Positions 1-5,298 of a stretch of 5,298 nt of DNA are shown one piece after another (the first letter of the stretch is position 1; every line of letters begins with the position of its first letter). Position numbers and translations under genes: made by a program. Origin of the DNA: JAUWCW01 sp030609125 [NCBI: Candidatus Rokuibacteriota bacterium] (lineage in GTDB: Bacteria > JAUVQV01); assembly GCA_030609125.1 (NCBI GenBank), contig JAUWCW010000170.1, positions 1 to 5,298 of the forward strand. The letters are read 5' to 3'. A model generated the notes under the pieces. It did no database searches. It was given only the letters and a program-made list of their open reading frames with translations, and was not told the DNA's origin.

Positions 1-191
1 TACCACCCGAAAAGGGGCGTGCCGTCGGCGGCGAAGAAGGCGACATCCTCCGCCTCCAGGCCGAAGTCGGACGGGACGGCGTCCAGTCCACGGCTGGGGT
101 AGTACATGAGACGGTCCAGGGAGAGGCGGAGAAGAAGGCCCATCACGAAGTAGGCGCCCAGAAGAAGAACGGCGACGATGGTGATTTTCAT
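1..191 (-). CDS. Membrane-anchored alpha/beta hydrolase, N-terminal part only
   Basis: Only the first 63 codons are visible; the gene runs off the left edge. The protein begins MKITIVAVLLLGAYFVMGLL, a hydrophobic segment of about 20 residues with little positive charge before it, so it is probably an uncleaved signal anchor or a signal peptide. After it comes the pattern MYYPSRGLD, then VPSDFGLEAEDVAFFAADG and TPLFGW. The order 'Y-P-R ... P-x-x-x-G-L-x-x-E-D-V-x-F ... A-D-G-x-x-L-x-G-W' is typical of the first strands of BEM46/serine-aminopeptidase-like alpha/beta hydrolases, usually annotated as hydrolase of unknown substrate. The nucleophile elbow and catalytic triad would lie outside the window, so activity cannot be judged. 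The ATG at 189-191 has a GGGGGA ribosome site nine bases upstream. It starts 22 bases after the Lon-like protease stop and is probably co-transcribed with it. Family call fairly sure; substrate unknown. Confidence 0.75.
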   Translation of the reverse strand, partial: MKITIVAVLLLGAYFVMGLLLRLSLDRLMYYPSRGLDAVPSDFGLEAEDVAFFAADGTPLFGW

Positions 192-200
192 GGCCACCGA

Positions 201-206
201 TCCCCC
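201..206 (-). promoter_or_regulatory. Ribosome binding site of the hydrolase gene
   Basis: GGGGGA on the minus strand, nine bases before the ATG at 191, inside the 22-base gap after the protease gene. It supports that start. The gap leaves no room for a separate promoter or terminator, so the hydrolase is probably read from the same transcript as the protease. Confidence 0.5.
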
Positions 207-213
207 GGCGACA

Positions 214-2649
214 TCAGTCTTCGTCCCCGTTCTCCTCCTTTTCCCCCTTGTCGGGAGAGCCGAACTTCTTGAGGGCCCTGGCCATGTCGAGGAGGGCCTT
301 GTCGACGGCGTCCATGATCGTGCCCTCTTCGCCGGGCGCCCCGGCCGGCATGCCGGTGAGAAGCCCCATCCCCTCTTCCACTGTCGTCACCGGGTAGATG
401 CTGAACCTGCCTTCCCGGACGGCGGACACCACCTGGGGATGAAGAACGAGGTGCTTGACGTTGGAGGCCGGAATGAGGACCCCCTGGTCTCCGGTCAGCC
501 CTATCCTCTCACAGGTCCTGAAGAACCCCTCGATCTTCTCGTTCACCCCTCCGACGGCCTGGATCTCCCCGCGCTGATTGACGGATCCGGTCACCGCCAG
601 GTCCTGGCGCAGCGGAATGTCGGCGATCCTCGAAAGAAGGACGTAGAGTTCCGCCGCCGAAGCGCTGTCGCCCTCCACGCCGGAGTAGGACTGCTCGAAG
701 CAGAGGCTGGCCGAAAAGGAGAGGGGCTTGTCGCGGCCGAAGCGGTTCCGCAGGAAACCGGCGATGATCAGGACGCCCTTGTCGTGGATGCTTCCCGAGA
801 GCTTGGCTTCCCGCTCGATGTTGACGATCCCCGCACTCCCCATGGAGACGCTGGCGGTGAGGCGGGCGGGGCGCCCGAAGGTGTAGCCTCCGAAAAAGAT
901 CACCGTCAGGGCGTTGATCTGGCCCACCTCCCTGCCCTCCACTCTGAGGAGGAGAGTCCCGTCCTCAAAGAGCTCGCGTCCTCTCTCCTCCATCCAGTTG
1001 GCCCGGAATATTCTCCTCTCCACCGCATCCCGAACCGCGGAGGCGTCGACGAATTCCTCGCCCTTTTCCAACGTCACCAGGTTCGCCTCCCTCGCCAGAT
1101 CCTCCACCTCGTGAAGCCGGGCGGAGAGTCTGGACTGGTCGCCGGCCCGGCGCACGCCGAAGCGGAGCAGCTCCGCCACGCCGTCGCGGGTGAAGTGACG
1201 GAGCTTCTCCTCCGCCACCAGGTGGGCCACCCTCCGCACGTAGGACCATTCAGCCTCTTCCCCCCTCTTCTCCTCCGGCGCGAAGTCGGCAAGGACCTTG
1301 AAGATCCCCCGAAACTCCGGATCGACAGAGCTGAGGATGCTGTAGGCGTAGCGGCTCCCGGTGACGACGAGCCGGATGTCAATGCAGATCGGCTCGGGGT
1401 TCAGGCCCGAGACGGAAATGAAGGCAAAGGGGTTCTGGCTCTCGATCTCGATGCGTCCGTTCTTGAGGACCCGCTTCAGGGGCTTCCAGACGAACATTTC
1501 CGTCAGGGCGTCGTCGAGGTCGAAGACCAGGAACCCGCCGTTGGCCCGCAAAAGGTCCCCCGCCTTGATGCGGGTGAAATTCGTCACCAGTTTCCCCGTC
1601 TGGTCCACGACCCGCTCGATGGAGCCGAAGAGGTTCTGGTAGGTGGGACTGTCCTGGACAACCACCGGTGCGCCCTTCTTGCCGGCGTTGTCGACGATGA
1701 GGTTCACCTGGTAGGGAAGAAACTTGTCCTCCTGCGGCATCTTCAGCATGGGGAAAGGAAAGGGAGACGGTGTTTCCTCCTCCTGCTGGAAGTTCTCCAG
1801 GTTCTCCAGGATCGAGTCCCTCACCTTCTTCAGGTAGGCGCCCACGTCCCCGTCTTCGTGTTCCGACGAGATGGCGCTGACGAGGGGGTCCACCAGCTCG
1901 GCGGCGAATTTCCGGACCGTCTCCTCCACCTCCTCGCGTACTTTCTTGGAGATGGCCTGCTGCTGCTTCACCAGCTCCCTGGCCTCGCGCTGGACGGCCT
2001 CCCTGTTTTTCGAAAGCTCCTTCTTCCTCTCCTTCGTGAGATTCTCGTACTCCTCCTGGTTGGCCACCGGTTCGCCGTCATCCTTCAGGGGGGCGAAGAC
2101 CATCTGGCCGTCGGAGCTCATGCGAAAGAGGACCCCCCTCTCCCGGGCCGACTCCTGAAACGTGTTGAAGAGCTCTTTGATCTGGCGATCGTAGGTGGAG
2201 GTGATCTGCTCCTTTTCCCGCTCGAAGCTCTCCTTTTTCAGGGCCTCCGGTATCTGGCGACTCAGAGTGGAGATGAGCCGCTCCATGTCCTTGCGAAGCT
2301 TTCTGCCGTCCCCGGCCTTCAGTTTCAGCGCCAGAGGCCGGTCGGGATCGTCAAAGTTGTGGAGGTAGACAATGTCCGGCGGCGTGGGCATGTCACCCGC
2401 CTCTCCGAGGATGAGATCCTTGACCTGCGTCTCCCGGCCGGGGCCTTCCAGCCCGGCAACGAAGACGTTGTATCCCTCGGTCCGGAGCCTGATCCCGAGA
2501 CGGAGGGCGCTCATGGCCCTCTCCTCCCCCAGTTGACTCCGGACTCCCTCTACCTGCTCCGTAGTCTGAAAGTCGAGACGGCCCAGATCAATCGCCGGAG
2601 AGAGATCGTCCGGGCCGAGGGGCTTCGGCCCGGTCCCGGCGGCGCTCAC
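214..2649 (-). CDS. Lon-family (S16) protease, AAA_32 type, with degenerate ATPase motifs
   Basis: Cytoplasmic serine-lysine protease of 811 residues, the usual size for the LonB/LonC-like group with an AAA_32 N-terminal module. Order of parts: an N-terminal segment with PLGPDDLSPAID and FQTTEQVEG; an ATPase-like start (about 40-100); a long charged helical, probably coiled-coil, insertion (about 139-290); the second ATPase-like half (about 310-545, with APVVVQDSPTYQNLFG and RANGGFLVFDLDD); and the Lon proteolytic domain (about 560-770). The catalytic pair is clear: Ser664 in EGDSASAAE (codon 658-660) and Lys705 in GGVNEKIEGF (codon 535-537), 41 residues apart, close to the spacing in known Lon proteases. 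The Walker A position reads GLEGPGRET, without the canonical GKT/S, and Walker B reads FLVFDLDD, without the usual D-E pair. LonC proteases with decayed Walker motifs are known to be ATP-independent, so that is possible here. The tail (about 771-811) ends highly charged. The GTG start overlaps the hsp20 stop (GTGA), implying translational coupling; a weak AAGGGG lies seven bases upstream. Family certain; ATP dependence uncertain. Confidence 0.95.
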   Translation of the reverse strand: MSAAGTGPKPLGPDDLSPAIDLGRLDFQTTEQVEGVRSQLGEERAMSALRLGIRLRTEGYNVFVAGLEGPGRETQVKDLILGEAGDMPTPPDIVYLHNFDDPDRPLALKLKAGDGRKLRKDMERLISTLSRQIPEALKKESFEREKEQITSTYDRQIKELFNTFQESARERGVLFRMSSDGQMVFAPLKDDGEPVANQEEYENLTKERKKELSKNREAVQREARELVKQQQAISKKVREEVEETVRKFAAELVDPLVSAISSEHEDGDVGAYLKKVRDSILENLENFQQEEETPSPFPFPMLKMPQEDKFLPYQVNLIVDNAGKKGAPVVVQDSPTYQNLFGSIERVVDQTGKLVTNFTRIKAGDLLRANGGFLVFDLDDALTEMFVWKPLKRVLKNGRIEIESQNPFAFISVSGLNPEPICIDIRLVVTGSRYAYSILSSVDPEFRGIFKVLADFAPEEKRGEEAEWSYVRRVAHLVAEEKLRHFTRDGVAELLRFGVRRAGDQSRLSARLHEVEDLAREANLVTLEKGEEFVDASAVRDAVERRIFRANWMEERGRELFEDGTLLLRVEGREVGQINALTVIFFGGYTFGRPARLTASVSMGSAGIVNIEREAKLSGSIHDKGVLIIAGFLRNRFGRDKPLSFSASLCFEQSYSGVEGDSASAAELYVLLSRIADIPLRQDLAVTGSVNQRGEIQAVGGVNEKIEGFFRTCERIGLTGDQGVLIPASNVKHLVLHPQVVSAVREGRFSIYPVTTVEEGMGLLTGMPAGAPGEEGTIMDAVDKALLDMARALKKFGSPDKGEKEENGDED

Positions 2650-3056
2650 CGGCCCGCCCCTTTTTTGGGCAGTTCCACGCGAAGGATCCCCTCCTCCATG
2701 GCCGCGCTTATCCCTTCCTCATCGATCTGCCGGGGCAGCGGTACGGACCTGCGGAAGCTGCCCGAGACCCGTTCGCAGTGGCTGTAGCGGGCCCCCACGA
2801 TCCGCCGGATCAGCTTGCGGCTTCCGGTGATCATCAGGGTGCGTCCCTGCAGCTCGATGCTGACGTCCTCGCGGCGCACCCCGGGGAGGTCCATCTCCAG
2901 GATGAAGCGGTCGTCCTCCTCCGTCACGTCGAGCTGGGGATTCCAGACGTCGACACCGATGCTCCGTGAAGAGAGCGTTCCGAGGGCCTGCCGGAAGAAG
3001 TCGTCGACCTCCCCCCGGATGGCGGGGTGCAGAAAGTCCTCGTCGTTGAATTTCAC
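2646..3056 (-). CDS. hsp20: Hsp20/alpha-crystallin small heat shock protein
   Basis: ATP-independent holding chaperone of 136 residues that binds unfolding proteins in the cytoplasm. A short N-terminal arm (about 1-37, with VDDFFRQALGTL) precedes an alpha-crystallin domain (about 38-131). Family signatures are visible: W-x-P-x-x-D-V-x-E (38-46), MDLPGVRREDVSIEL (55-69), GSFRRSVPLP (99-108) and the strand ending EEGILRVELPK (121-131). The chain stops five residues later (KGAGR), so the usual C-terminal extension with an I-x-I/V oligomerisation motif is absent. The start is GTG at 3054-3056, chosen because GGAGG lies nine bases upstream and because the preceding DJ-1 gene ends only four bases before it. 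Its last codons overlap the start of the Lon-like protease by four bases. The pairing suggests client hand-over from chaperone to protease, which is inferred from layout only. Confidence 0.95.
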   Translation of the reverse strand: MKFNDEDFLHPAIRGEVDDFFRQALGTLSSRSIGVDVWNPQLDVTEEDDRFILEMDLPGVRREDVSIELQGRTLMITGSRKLIRRIVGARYSHCERVSGSFRRSVPLPRQIDEEGISAAMEEGILRVELPKKGAGR

Positions 3057-3060
3057 GGTG

Positions 3061-3624
3061 TCACTCCTCCCGGACGGGCCGCTGGAGGGCGGCCTCTACC
3101 TGTTCGCGCTTTTCCTTCCCCGCCAGGACCTCGACGAGCTCCAGGGCGAAATCCATGGCCGTCCCCGGCCCGCGGGAGGTGATCACCTTCCCATCCCGCA
3201 CCACCGGGTCTTTCTTCAGCCGCACGTCGTCCAGCCCCAGGCGGTCGAGAAAGCCGGGATAGCCCGTGGCCCTCTTTCCCTTGAGAATGCCCGCCTCCGC
3301 GAGAACGACGGGCGAAGCGCAGATGGCGGCGGTGTACTTTCCCTGCTCCGCCATCTCCCGGAGGAGGGCGAGAATGCGCTCATCGTTTTTCAGGTTCTCC
3401 ATCCCCGGCATGCCGCCGGGCAGAACAACCATGTCGTAGTCCGCCTCAAGGGCCTCGTCGAGCGCAGCGTCGGGGACGAGGACCGTCCCGTGGGCGGCCC
3501 GGACGGACCCCTCGCCCAGACCGGCGGTCACCACCTCGATTCCGGCCCGGCGAAGCAGATCCACGATCGTCACGGCCTCGAGCTCTTCGCAGCCCGGAGC
3601 CAGGGGAACAATTACGCGCGGCAT
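3061..3624 (-). CDS. DJ-1/PfpI family protein (YajL/DJ-1-like)
   Basis: A 187-residue cytoplasmic protein of the DJ-1/ThiJ/PfpI superfamily, whose members are linked to oxidative and carbonyl stress; reported activities (chaperone, glyoxalase or deglycase) are debated. The N-terminus PRVIVPLAPGCEELEAV carries the conserved acidic residue (Glu16, equivalent to DJ-1 Glu18). The nucleophile elbow YTAAICASPVVLAEAG holds Cys102 (codon 3319-3321), equivalent to DJ-1 Cys106. VLPGGMPGMENL (67-78) and TSRGPGTAMDFAL (149-161) are also family hallmarks. No histidine matches human DJ-1 His126, as in other bacterial members. The ATG at 3622-3624 is chosen over a longer frame reaching 3747 because AAGGAG sits six bases upstream and homology starts here; the extra 41 residues would be translated from an intergenic repeat. 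First gene of the DJ-1, hsp20, lon-like set. Family certain, biochemical role not. Confidence 0.95.
   Translation of the reverse strand: MPRVIVPLAPGCEELEAVTIVDLLRRAGIEVVTAGLGEGSVRAAHGTVLVPDAALDEALEADYDMVVLPGGMPGMENLKNDERILALLREMAEQGKYTAAICASPVVLAEAGILKGKRATGYPGFLDRLGLDDVRLKKDPVVRDGKVITSRGPGTAMDFALELVEVLAGKEKREQVEAALQRPVREE
3066..3070 (-). promoter_or_regulatory. Ribosome binding site of hsp20, inside the end of the DJ-1 gene
   Basis: GGAGG, nine bases before the GTG start at 3056, lies within the last codons of the DJ-1 gene. It decides the non-ATG start of hsp20 and means ribosomes finishing DJ-1 are positioned to start hsp20, so the two are probably coupled. Confidence 0.6.
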
Positions 3625-3630
3625 GGCTCT

Positions 3631-3636
3631 CTCCTT
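3631..3636 (-). promoter_or_regulatory. Strong Shine-Dalgarno site of the DJ-1 gene
   Basis: AAGGAG on the minus strand with six bases before the ATG at 3624. It is the best ribosome site in the window and settles the start of the DJ-1 protein against the longer open frame upstream. Its strength fits the first gene of an operon. Confidence 0.75.
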
Positions 3637-3641
3637 CCGTG

Positions 3642-3664
3642 CGGCCGACGGATGCCGGCCGACG
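3642..3664 (-). repeat. Pair of 9-bp direct repeats in the DJ-1 leader
   Basis: CGGCCGACG occurs at 3642-3650 and again at 3656-3664, separated by five bases, so the units repeat every 14 bp. They sit between the promoter-like sequence and the ribosome site of the DJ-1 gene. Each copy contains the palindrome CGGCCG. The position would suit a regulator site or leader RNA structure, but in GC-rich DNA such a short repeat can arise by chance. No known operator is recognised. Confidence 0.4.
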
Positions 3665-3665
3665 C

Positions 3666-3692
3666 TTTTAAGCCTACCACACTCTTGTCCAA
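3666..3692 (-). promoter_or_regulatory. Weak promoter-like sequence upstream of the DJ-1/hsp20/lon-like set
   Basis: On the minus strand TTGGAC (3687-3692) and TTAAAA (3666-3671) lie 15 bases apart, the only AT-rich stretch in the gap just ahead of the DJ-1 leader. Both boxes are poor matches to the sigma-70 consensus and the spacing is short; a TGGTAGGCT extended -10 reading overlaps it. Location, about 42 bases before the DJ-1 start, is the main argument. No convincing sigma-32 promoter or CIRCE element was found although the operon encodes heat shock type proteins. Confidence 0.25.
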
Positions 3693-3695
3693 CGC

Positions 3696-3743
3696 GGATT
3701 CTCAAATCCCCCTCAATCCCCCTTTGGCAAAAGGGGGAAGTCC
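3696..3743. repeat. Short interspersed palindromic repeat (C-run/G-run type)
   Basis: On the plus strand the motif AATCCCCCT appears twice (3705-3713 and 3715-3723) and runs into a perfect 8-bp inverted repeat, CCCCCTTT (3718-3725), loop GGCA, AAAGGGGG (3730-3737). A smaller hairpin, GGATT/AATCC (3696-3700 and 3705-3709), adjoins it. This layout matches a class of short repeats that I recall as dispersed in intergenic DNA of many environmental bacteria, where they give spurious peptides such as NPPLAKGG; that peptide reading is present here on the plus strand. It lies 45-90 bases after the DUF4340 stop. On the minus transcript the stem is followed by a G-rich run rather than a U tract, so it is a poor intrinsic terminator, though it may protect RNA ends. 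Confidence 0.65.
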
Positions 3744-3781
3744 ACATGTTCCCCTATCTGGAAGAGGCGAAGTCGGGGGGG

Positions 3782-4705
3782 CTACTCGGAGGGGGAAAAA
3801 TCCGCTTCGCTCATGACGAGCGAGTCCGTGACGTACCGGCTGACAAGGTAAACGGTGTCGGAGTCGCTGGAGCGGACGTAACGCTGCCTCACCTCCTCCT
3901 TCAGGGCCCCCACGAGGAGAGTGACCGCCCCGGCGGGTGTGCCGAGAACGATCTCGACGGCGGGCTCGTCGAAACCCGCCCGGGCCATCGCATCCCCGGC
4001 GGCAAAATCCGAAGCCTTCATTCCAGCGATCCGGTCCAGGTAGTCGGAGACGGCCTTTGCATCCGCCGGGCTGCCGTTCATCACCCACGCACCGGTCTCA
4101 CCCTTCTCCACCGTGGCCTCCCCCTCGGAGGAGCGCACGGTGACCGAGTCGACCGCTTCGACATCCACCGCGACGATGGTCCGGTTGCGCCATCCGCTCA
4201 CGGGCCGGGCAAAGACGCCGCTCAAGTCGGTGGAGACGAGGAGGATCTCCCCGGCGCCCCTGACCTGCAGGTACCCGGTGAAGGGGTCCGGACCCCGACG
4301 GCCGACGGAAAAATCCGCCAGGACCGCACCGTCGGCGTCGGCGAGGATCACCTCGACTCCCTCCTTCTCTCCCAGCCCGAAAAGCTCCCGCTTCCCCGTC
4401 GTCCGGGAAGCGACCGCTTCCCGGGTGATCTCCGCCAGCCCTTCCAGAAGACTCTCCATTTCCCCCGCGTCGGCCCGGTACCGCTCATCGCCGACCCGCC
4501 ACGTCCCGTCGCCGGCGCGGCTCAGGGTGAACGTCTCCGCCGGCCTGGTGACGGTGACCGACCTTACCGCCTGAACATCCAGGCCGGGAAAGACCGGGGG
4601 CTTTTCGGTCGGGCGGTTCTTTCGGCCCGGGCCCTGGACAAAGAAGGCCAGCCCTCCCAGGATAATGAGAACCGCCGTGAGAAAAAGTATCTTCCTAGCC
4701 GGCAT
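3782..4705 (-). CDS. DUF4340 domain-containing membrane-anchored protein
   Basis: A 307-residue protein with one N-terminal membrane segment (about 5-24, KILFLTAVLIILGGLAFF) after a short basic start, so most of it should lie outside the cytoplasmic membrane. The rest fits the DUF4340 family: two successive beta-rich units. Unit one (about 46-175) has VRSVTVTR, GTWRVGDERY, a helix, VEVILADADG and GEILLVSTDLSGVF; unit two (about 183-303) has VDSVTVRS, GAWVMNG, a helix, VEIVLGTPAG and DTVYLVSRYVTDSL. The family has no established biochemical function. It commonly follows a GldG-like gene in ABC-transporter clusters, and here its ATG overlaps the end of that gene by 11 bases, indicating coupled translation; GGAG lies eight bases upstream. 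No catalytic motif is seen, so a binding or structural partner role is the inference. It ends with TAG just before the repeat-bearing gap. Confidence 0.88.
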   Translation of the reverse strand: MPARKILFLTAVLIILGGLAFFVQGPGRKNRPTEKPPVFPGLDVQAVRSVTVTRPAETFTLSRAGDGTWRVGDERYRADAGEMESLLEGLAEITREAVASRTTGKRELFGLGEKEGVEVILADADGAVLADFSVGRRGPDPFTGYLQVRGAGEILLVSTDLSGVFARPVSGWRNRTIVAVDVEAVDSVTVRSSEGEATVEKGETGAWVMNGSPADAKAVSDYLDRIAGMKASDFAAGDAMARAGFDEPAVEIVLGTPAGAVTLLVGALKEEVRQRYVRSSDSDTVYLVSRYVTDSLVMSEADFSPSE

Positions 4706-5298
4706 TTCTTCTTCTCCGCCGCACCAGGAGTGTCACGAAGCCGTAGAGAGCGACCAGGGCGGGAAGGACCACGACATTGGCTGCCTTCAGGAGTGTCCTC
4801 TCCCTCGCGGTAAACTCGGAGAGCGCCCTCTCGCCTCCCGTCCGGGAACGTATCCCGATGAGGTCCGCACCGATGGTCATCCAGTCCACGGCGTTCATCA
4901 GAAAGACGGCGCCGGCGGGAAACTGCCGGAGAAACTCCGGCTGGGCCATGCTGGAGGAGCCGATGACGAGAATGGCGGTCTCTTCGCTCTCGTCGAGCAG
5001 GGCCGCGGGCACGCCTTCGTCCGCGGGCGGCGGCTCCCGGTCCTTCCAGGCACTCCGGAACCGTCCCTGCAGCAGGACCACCAGGGGTCGGCTCCGCCTG
5101 GCGCCCTCCTCGACGGGAAGCCGAAGCCGCCGCTGCGGCGAAAAGTCGTACCGCCCCGACTCCGTCCAGGATGACGGGGTGGACGCGGCGAGAACCTCGG
5201 CCCGGACGTTTCCCTCCTCATCCGCCAGGACATCCAGGGAACTCGTCCAGGGGATGACGATCGACTCCAGGCCGGCGGTCACAGGATGCTCGCCGTTG
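4695..5298 (-). CDS. gldG: GldG-family ABC-transporter auxiliary protein, C-terminal part
   Basis: The last 200 codons of a longer gene; the frame is open through the right edge, and a GTG at 5280-5282 is internal rather than a start. The visible part begins NGEHPVTAGLESIVIPWTSSLD, which fits the 'H-P-I/V-T-x-G-L ... P ... S-S-L' pattern late in the PF09822/GldG region. Further on, ETAILVIGSSSMAQPEFL and FLMNAVDWMTIGADLIGIRS match the family's 'G-S ... N-A-V-x-W ... L-I-x-I-R' block. A C-terminal membrane helix (about 171-192 of the visible part, AANVVVLPALVALYGFVTLLV) is followed by a cluster of arginines, the usual end of these proteins and consistent with a cytoplasmic tail. GldG partners GldA (ATPase) and GldF (permease) in gliding Bacteroidetes, but homologues are widespread in non-gliding bacteria with unknown substrates. 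The next gene, DUF4340, overlaps its end. Those partner genes would be expected beyond the right edge. Confidence 0.85.
   Translation of the reverse strand, partial: NGEHPVTAGLESIVIPWTSSLDVLADEEGNVRAEVLAASTPSSWTESGRYDFSPQRRLRLPVEEGARRSRPLVVLLQGRFRSAWKDREPPPADEGVPAALLDESEETAILVIGSSSMAQPEFLRQFPAGAVFLMNAVDWMTIGADLIGIRSRTGGERALSEFTARERTLLKAANVVVLPALVALYGFVTLLVRRRRRNAG

Follow-up and report, generated by a model that had tools for sequence, protein, structure and literature searches.

The gene at 214..2649 on the minus strand of the window (the whole stretch of 5,298 nucleotides of Candidatus Rokuibacteriota DNA that was analysed) encodes a LonC-type Lon-like protease, an unexceptional representative of a widespread family. 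The assignment of this 811-amino-acid protein, which has a GTG start, comes from its Pfam domains, its match to the LonC of Meiothermus taiwanensis (MtaLonC) and its predicted fold. Loss of the Walker motifs is a usual trait of this family. Less expected is the neighbour of the gene, one for a small heat-shock protein (Hsp20) directly upstream.

Four Pfam domains exceed their cut-offs in the protein: LonC_helical (residues 92-125; 2275..2376, minus strand; E 1.1e-15), AAA_32 (residues 325-456; 1282..1677, minus strand; E 2.3e-43), LonB_AAA-LID (residues 485-549; 1003..1197, minus strand; E 8.7e-18) and Lon_C. Judged by these domains and by a relative from the same order that is 65-66% identical over the whole length, the gene is real. 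Among proteins of solved structure, the top five sequence matches are all MtaLonC (first E 1.8e-87). The NCBIfam models for archaeal LonB (TIGR00764, 150.8 bits against a cut-off of 516.6) and for LonA (TIGR00763, 24.3 bits against 608.05, and NF008053, 24.2 against 891) stayed below their cut-offs. Antisense to the protease gene runs an open frame of 869 amino acids (178-2787, plus strand), probably a by-product of high G+C content.

In Liao et al. (2012, PMC3391209), the defining marks of LonC proteins are two insertions within the protease domain and the absence of canonical AAA+ motifs. The first insertion, CX3GLX(G/E), is placed there between the helix of the catalytic lysine and the next strand, and the second, phi-X2-A-phi, in helix alpha5. 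The window protein carries CERIGLTG (residues 713-720; 490..513, minus strand), which fits the first pattern, and VVSAV (residues 740-744; 418..432, minus strand), which fits the second. It thus combines both insertions with a Ser-Lys dyad preceded by Asp and the LonC fold, and it has no canonical Walker motifs.

The relatives used for the motif survey were 83 sequences found by searching 290 whole genomes and the best 80 of 584 from the genome_contigs set, in which a first scan had found no relative and an alignment-based scan found the 584. One sequence with about 350 residues open (L152) was dropped from the alignment and the tree, and the aligned set consisted of the window protein and 162 relatives (163 rows). 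Fragments, for example in G033, G049, G167, G232, G248 and G265, lie outside the relative set. All counts given below for the 162 relatives, the 163 rows or the 164 LonC-like loci include the best 80 of the 584.

The catalytic residues are invariant in this set. Ser662 (664..666, minus strand) and Lys705 (535..537, minus strand) are Ser and Lys, respectively, in 162/162 relatives (best 80 of 584 included). Ser662 is preceded by Asp in a GDS at 660-662 and aligns with the active-site serine in the EGDSA of MtaLonC, which is Ala in one mutant chain. The first-pass annotation had named the dyad as Ser664/Lys705. Its lysine stands and its serine is to be replaced by Ser662, position 664 being Ser in 146, Thr in 13 and Ala in 3 of the relatives (again with the best 80 of 584) and Gly in MtaLonC.

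The Walker A-like stretch of the window protein reads GLEGPGRET (residues 66-74; 2428..2454, minus strand). Gly66, Gly69 and Gly71 are kept, position 72 is still basic but holds Arg instead of the invariant lysine, Glu73 occupies the usual Thr/Ser position and Pro70 lies within the loop; both the place of the stretch and these three substitutions agree with the first-pass annotation. The Walker B-like stretch, FLVFDLDD (residues 373-380; 1510..1533, minus strand), likewise lies where it had been placed. It had been described as lacking the D-E pair; the glutamate is gone (Leu378 stands in its place) and the aspartate is kept as Asp377. Neither [AG]x4GK[ST] nor hhhhDE occurs anywhere in the protein in a motif scan, and a relaxed scan for [AG]x4G[KR] returned only the known site and residues 587-593, within the protease domain. 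Since the strict scan was empty and GLEGPGRET aligns with the Walker A-like GPPSLGKHE of MtaLonC (motif as given in PMC3391209), a canonical Walker A elsewhere in the protein, the eventuality that the earlier annotation had kept in view, is ruled out.

Most of these substitutions recur across the family. Among the 162 relatives, the best 80 of 584 included, the position of the Walker A lysine is Arg in 77 and Lys in 76, the two being about equally common. The following position is Thr in 63, Ser in 14 and Glu in 7, with Thr/Ser absent in 85/162, and the loop position of Pro70 is Thr in 115 and Pro in none (0/162). The proline and the glutamate had been taken for further decay, a reading that these counts (with the same best 80 of 584) mostly reject, only the proline being private to the window protein. 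At the position of Asp377 the same relatives have Asn in 64 cases and Asp in 36. Over all rows, with the best 80 of 584 among the relatives, a strict GK[ST] is kept in 37/163 and the looser frame of Gly66, Gly71 and Lys or Arg at 72 in 145/163, and 163/163 lack the Walker B glutamate. The wording 'ATP-dependent' is therefore doubtful for the AAA_32/LonC-like family as sampled, and the doubt already raised about such a label for the window protein, a LonC-like protein without the Walker B glutamate, is supported.

LonA served as the control, sampled as 30 loci, each the best of its genome in a search of 60 genomes. By motif search both canonical Walker motifs are present in 30/30 of these proteins, one of which comes from the window's own genome and reads GPPGVGKTS and MMDEVDK (G000:C266, L117:2939-5359). 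Together with the counts over the 162 relatives, this control argues that degenerate Walker motifs are largely the state of the family and not a peculiarity of the window protein. A second LonA-like gene of the same genome lies at G000:C137:8533-10836 and scores 880.8 bits to the first.

An AlphaFold2 model (mean pLDDT 87.1, pTM 0.73) was built from an alignment of 59 rows, namely the window protein and 58 of the best 80 of the 584 relatives. In this model strand 62-66 leads into the Walker A-like stretch, which lies where helix 70-84 begins, and strand 373-377 carries the Walker B-like one. Foldseek ranked entries of MtaLonC in places 1-10 and archaeal LonB in places 11-12. VIA-align 2 scored full-length MtaLonC at Z 40.5-41.9, archaeal LonB at 23.7 and LonA at about 19, and the structural alignment with MtaLonC covered 574 residues at about 29-33% identity. 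A profile comparison of LonC with LonA by hhalign aligned residues 473-763 only, short of Walker A.

We consider it highly probable that the protein is a LonC-type ring protease with a dead AAA-like layer, in which Ser662/Lys705 would cut without ATP, and that it is probably paired with the Hsp20. The subunits would most likely assemble into a ring, with the catalytically dead AAA-like layer as the entrance to a chamber in which the dyad would cut polypeptides. ATP would presumably not be hydrolysed, and only unfolded or loosely folded substrates would be accepted. The protease is probably co-expressed with the Hsp20 holdase encoded upstream and may cooperate with it as a functional pair. MtaLonC is described in PMC3391209 as having no ATPase activity and as degrading unfolded proteins only; given the LonC insertions and the lost AAA+ motifs, its behaviour makes ATP-independent proteolysis likely for the window protein as well. 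MtaLonC, at about 29-33% identity, is the only characterised member on which we lean, and the activity of the window protein is predicted.

MtaLonC nevertheless still binds ATPgammaS (PMC3391209), and as Gly66, Gly71 and a basic residue 72 are kept in 145/163 rows (best 80 of 584 included), the nucleotide site may still be in use. A pocket that binds ATP or ADP without hydrolysing it could tune the assembly or the gate, making the enzyme responsive to ATP but not powered by it. This would be compatible with ATP-independent cutting, and we entertain it tentatively, given that the window protein has Pro70 and Glu73 in the loop and that the frame is wholly lost in three of the eight sequences of its clade (FastTree, local support 100). 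The lower retention of the frame in this clade (5/8, the window protein being one of the five, versus 140/155 outside; Fisher p 0.045, kinship uncorrected, best 80 of 584 included) and the private proline in the P-loop might also be taken as signs of a gene in decay, its AAA part drifting in a protein out of use. We give this hardly any credence, because the frame is open over its full length, the dyad and both insertions are intact, and the protein and its relative of the same order, 65-66% identical from end to end, both have the Hsp20 neighbour.

It also appears very unlikely that the family, unlike MtaLonC, hydrolyses ATP in an unorthodox way, with Asp380, in the helix that follows Walker B, replacing the glutamate and Arg72 replacing the lysine. 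Position 380 (1510-1512 in the window) is indeed Asp or Glu in 135/163 rows, the best 80 of 584 included, and it is aligned with a gap in MtaLonC, which is thus uninformative about a displaced acid. However, the capping of a surface helix would explain a conserved aspartate equally well, more than half of the rows lack the Walker A lysine and position 377 is Asp in only 36/162 relatives (both with the best 80 of 584), and we know of no ATPase that uses such a displaced acid.

The pairing proposed for the predicted LonC ring comes from its gene context. The stop of the Hsp20 gene (136 amino acids; 2646..3056, minus strand; Pfam HSP20 E 3e-19) and the start of the LonC gene share 4 bp (GTGA). 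A gene of the DJ-1/PfpI family (DJ-1/YajL-like; 3061..3747, minus strand; TIGR01383 196.2 bits, cut-off 131.25) ends 4 bp upstream of the Hsp20 start. Going by this spacing, DJ-1 and Hsp20 are probably in the same transcript, and DJ-1, Hsp20 and LonC may form one stress operon. A promoter and terminator scan of 3500-4000 found none, where none or few were expected, and the window's DJ-1, tried as a conserved third partner, gave no alignment with the open reading frames in L034-L117. Further upstream on the same strand (3782-5297) lie DUF4340 and ABC_transp_aux (GldG-like) genes, an ABC transporter auxiliary set.

An Hsp20 gene lies directly upstream on the same strand at 11 of the 164 LonC-like loci, the window among them, and the spacing, taken to approximate gene starts, ranges from about -3 to 130 bp; at the remaining 153/164 none was seen in that place (both counts include the best 80 of 584). 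The search used profiles made from the Hsp20 of the window together with its matches, by which remote Hsp20 proteins may be missed, and at least 600 bp of upstream sequence was present at 153 of the 163 other loci. In L077, L119 and L150, Hsp20 genes occur elsewhere in the stretch and not directly upstream. The nine LonC-linked Hsp20 proteins that were checked pass the Pfam cut-off, as does the window's own, and the call in G001 is a profile match only. The Hsp20-linked LonCs fall into two groups, six of the eight members of the window clade and five sequences of Desulfobacterota type, and on the LonC tree the linkage takes 4 changes versus 10.7 in shuffles. Thr/Ser at position 73 is found in 1/11 Hsp20-linked LonCs versus 76/152 of the others (Fisher p 0.010, kinship uncorrected over two clades, best 80 of 584 included), a difference to which we attach no weight.

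Hsp20 is also found directly upstream in 17/30 LonA loci. Pairing with Hsp20 as a hallmark of LonC is rejected by this comparison (11/164 LonC-like loci, with the best 80 of 584, versus 17/30), and since it is commoner upstream of LonA, the pairing is a wider habit of Lon genes. Of three Hsp20 genes in the genome of the window, two precede a Lon gene, one of LonC type and one LonA; at the latter (L117, G000:C266), the Hsp20 gene at 2470-2922 lies 17 bp upstream of LonA at 2939-5359. In the tree of Hsp20 proteins, LonC-linked and LonA-linked sequences are largely separate (2 changes each, shuffled mean about 9), in a topology with many weak forks and several long branches. An Hsp20 gene adjoining a Lon gene has already been reported in acidophiles (hsp20.3; PMC10490939), and in the literature searched, which covers few subscription journals, we recognised no paper describing an Hsp20-LonC pair.

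The recurrent Hsp20-LonC pair suggests a testable partner for LonC, whose cellular role was called unknown in the 2012 paper (PMC3391209). More speculatively, the two could form an energy-free triage module, in which an ATP-independent Hsp20 and LonC, made together, would pass unfolded clients directly from one to the other as a fuel-free parallel to the Hsp20-LonA pair of the same genome. On this view, two or more LonC clades would have acquired the pairing, and each would have an Hsp20 lineage to itself, separate from those linked to LonA. We regard this scheme as doubtful for the present.

Compared with known systems, LonA shares the Lon protease domain, the Ser-Lys dyad and, often, the upstream Hsp20 with the window protein, and differs in its GxxxxGK[ST] and hhhDE motifs (30/30) and in its other N-terminal part. 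Archaeal LonB (Thermococcus onnurineus, PDB 3k1j; Z 23.7) shares the AAA_32 and LID domains and the Asp-Ser context of the dyad; according to published descriptions, LonB is bound to the membrane and has canonical Walker motifs (PMC3391209, PMC9569914). The hsp20.3-lon pairs of acidophiles likewise have Hsp20 beside Lon (PMC10490939); in the window the Lon is of LonC type. The closest counterpart is MtaLonC (PDB 4fwd, 7eux and 8k8v), which has the same domain order and fold (Z 41.9), the Ser-Lys dyad with Asp before Ser, both insertions and the Walker B Asp without Glu. A hexamer was reported for it, and the titles of newer solved entries name a heptamer. Its Walker A-like stretch reads GPPSLGKHE where the window protein has GLEGPGRET, and its chains have 732 residues against 811. 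The adjoining Hsp20 gene is a feature of the window protein that sets it apart from MtaLonC.
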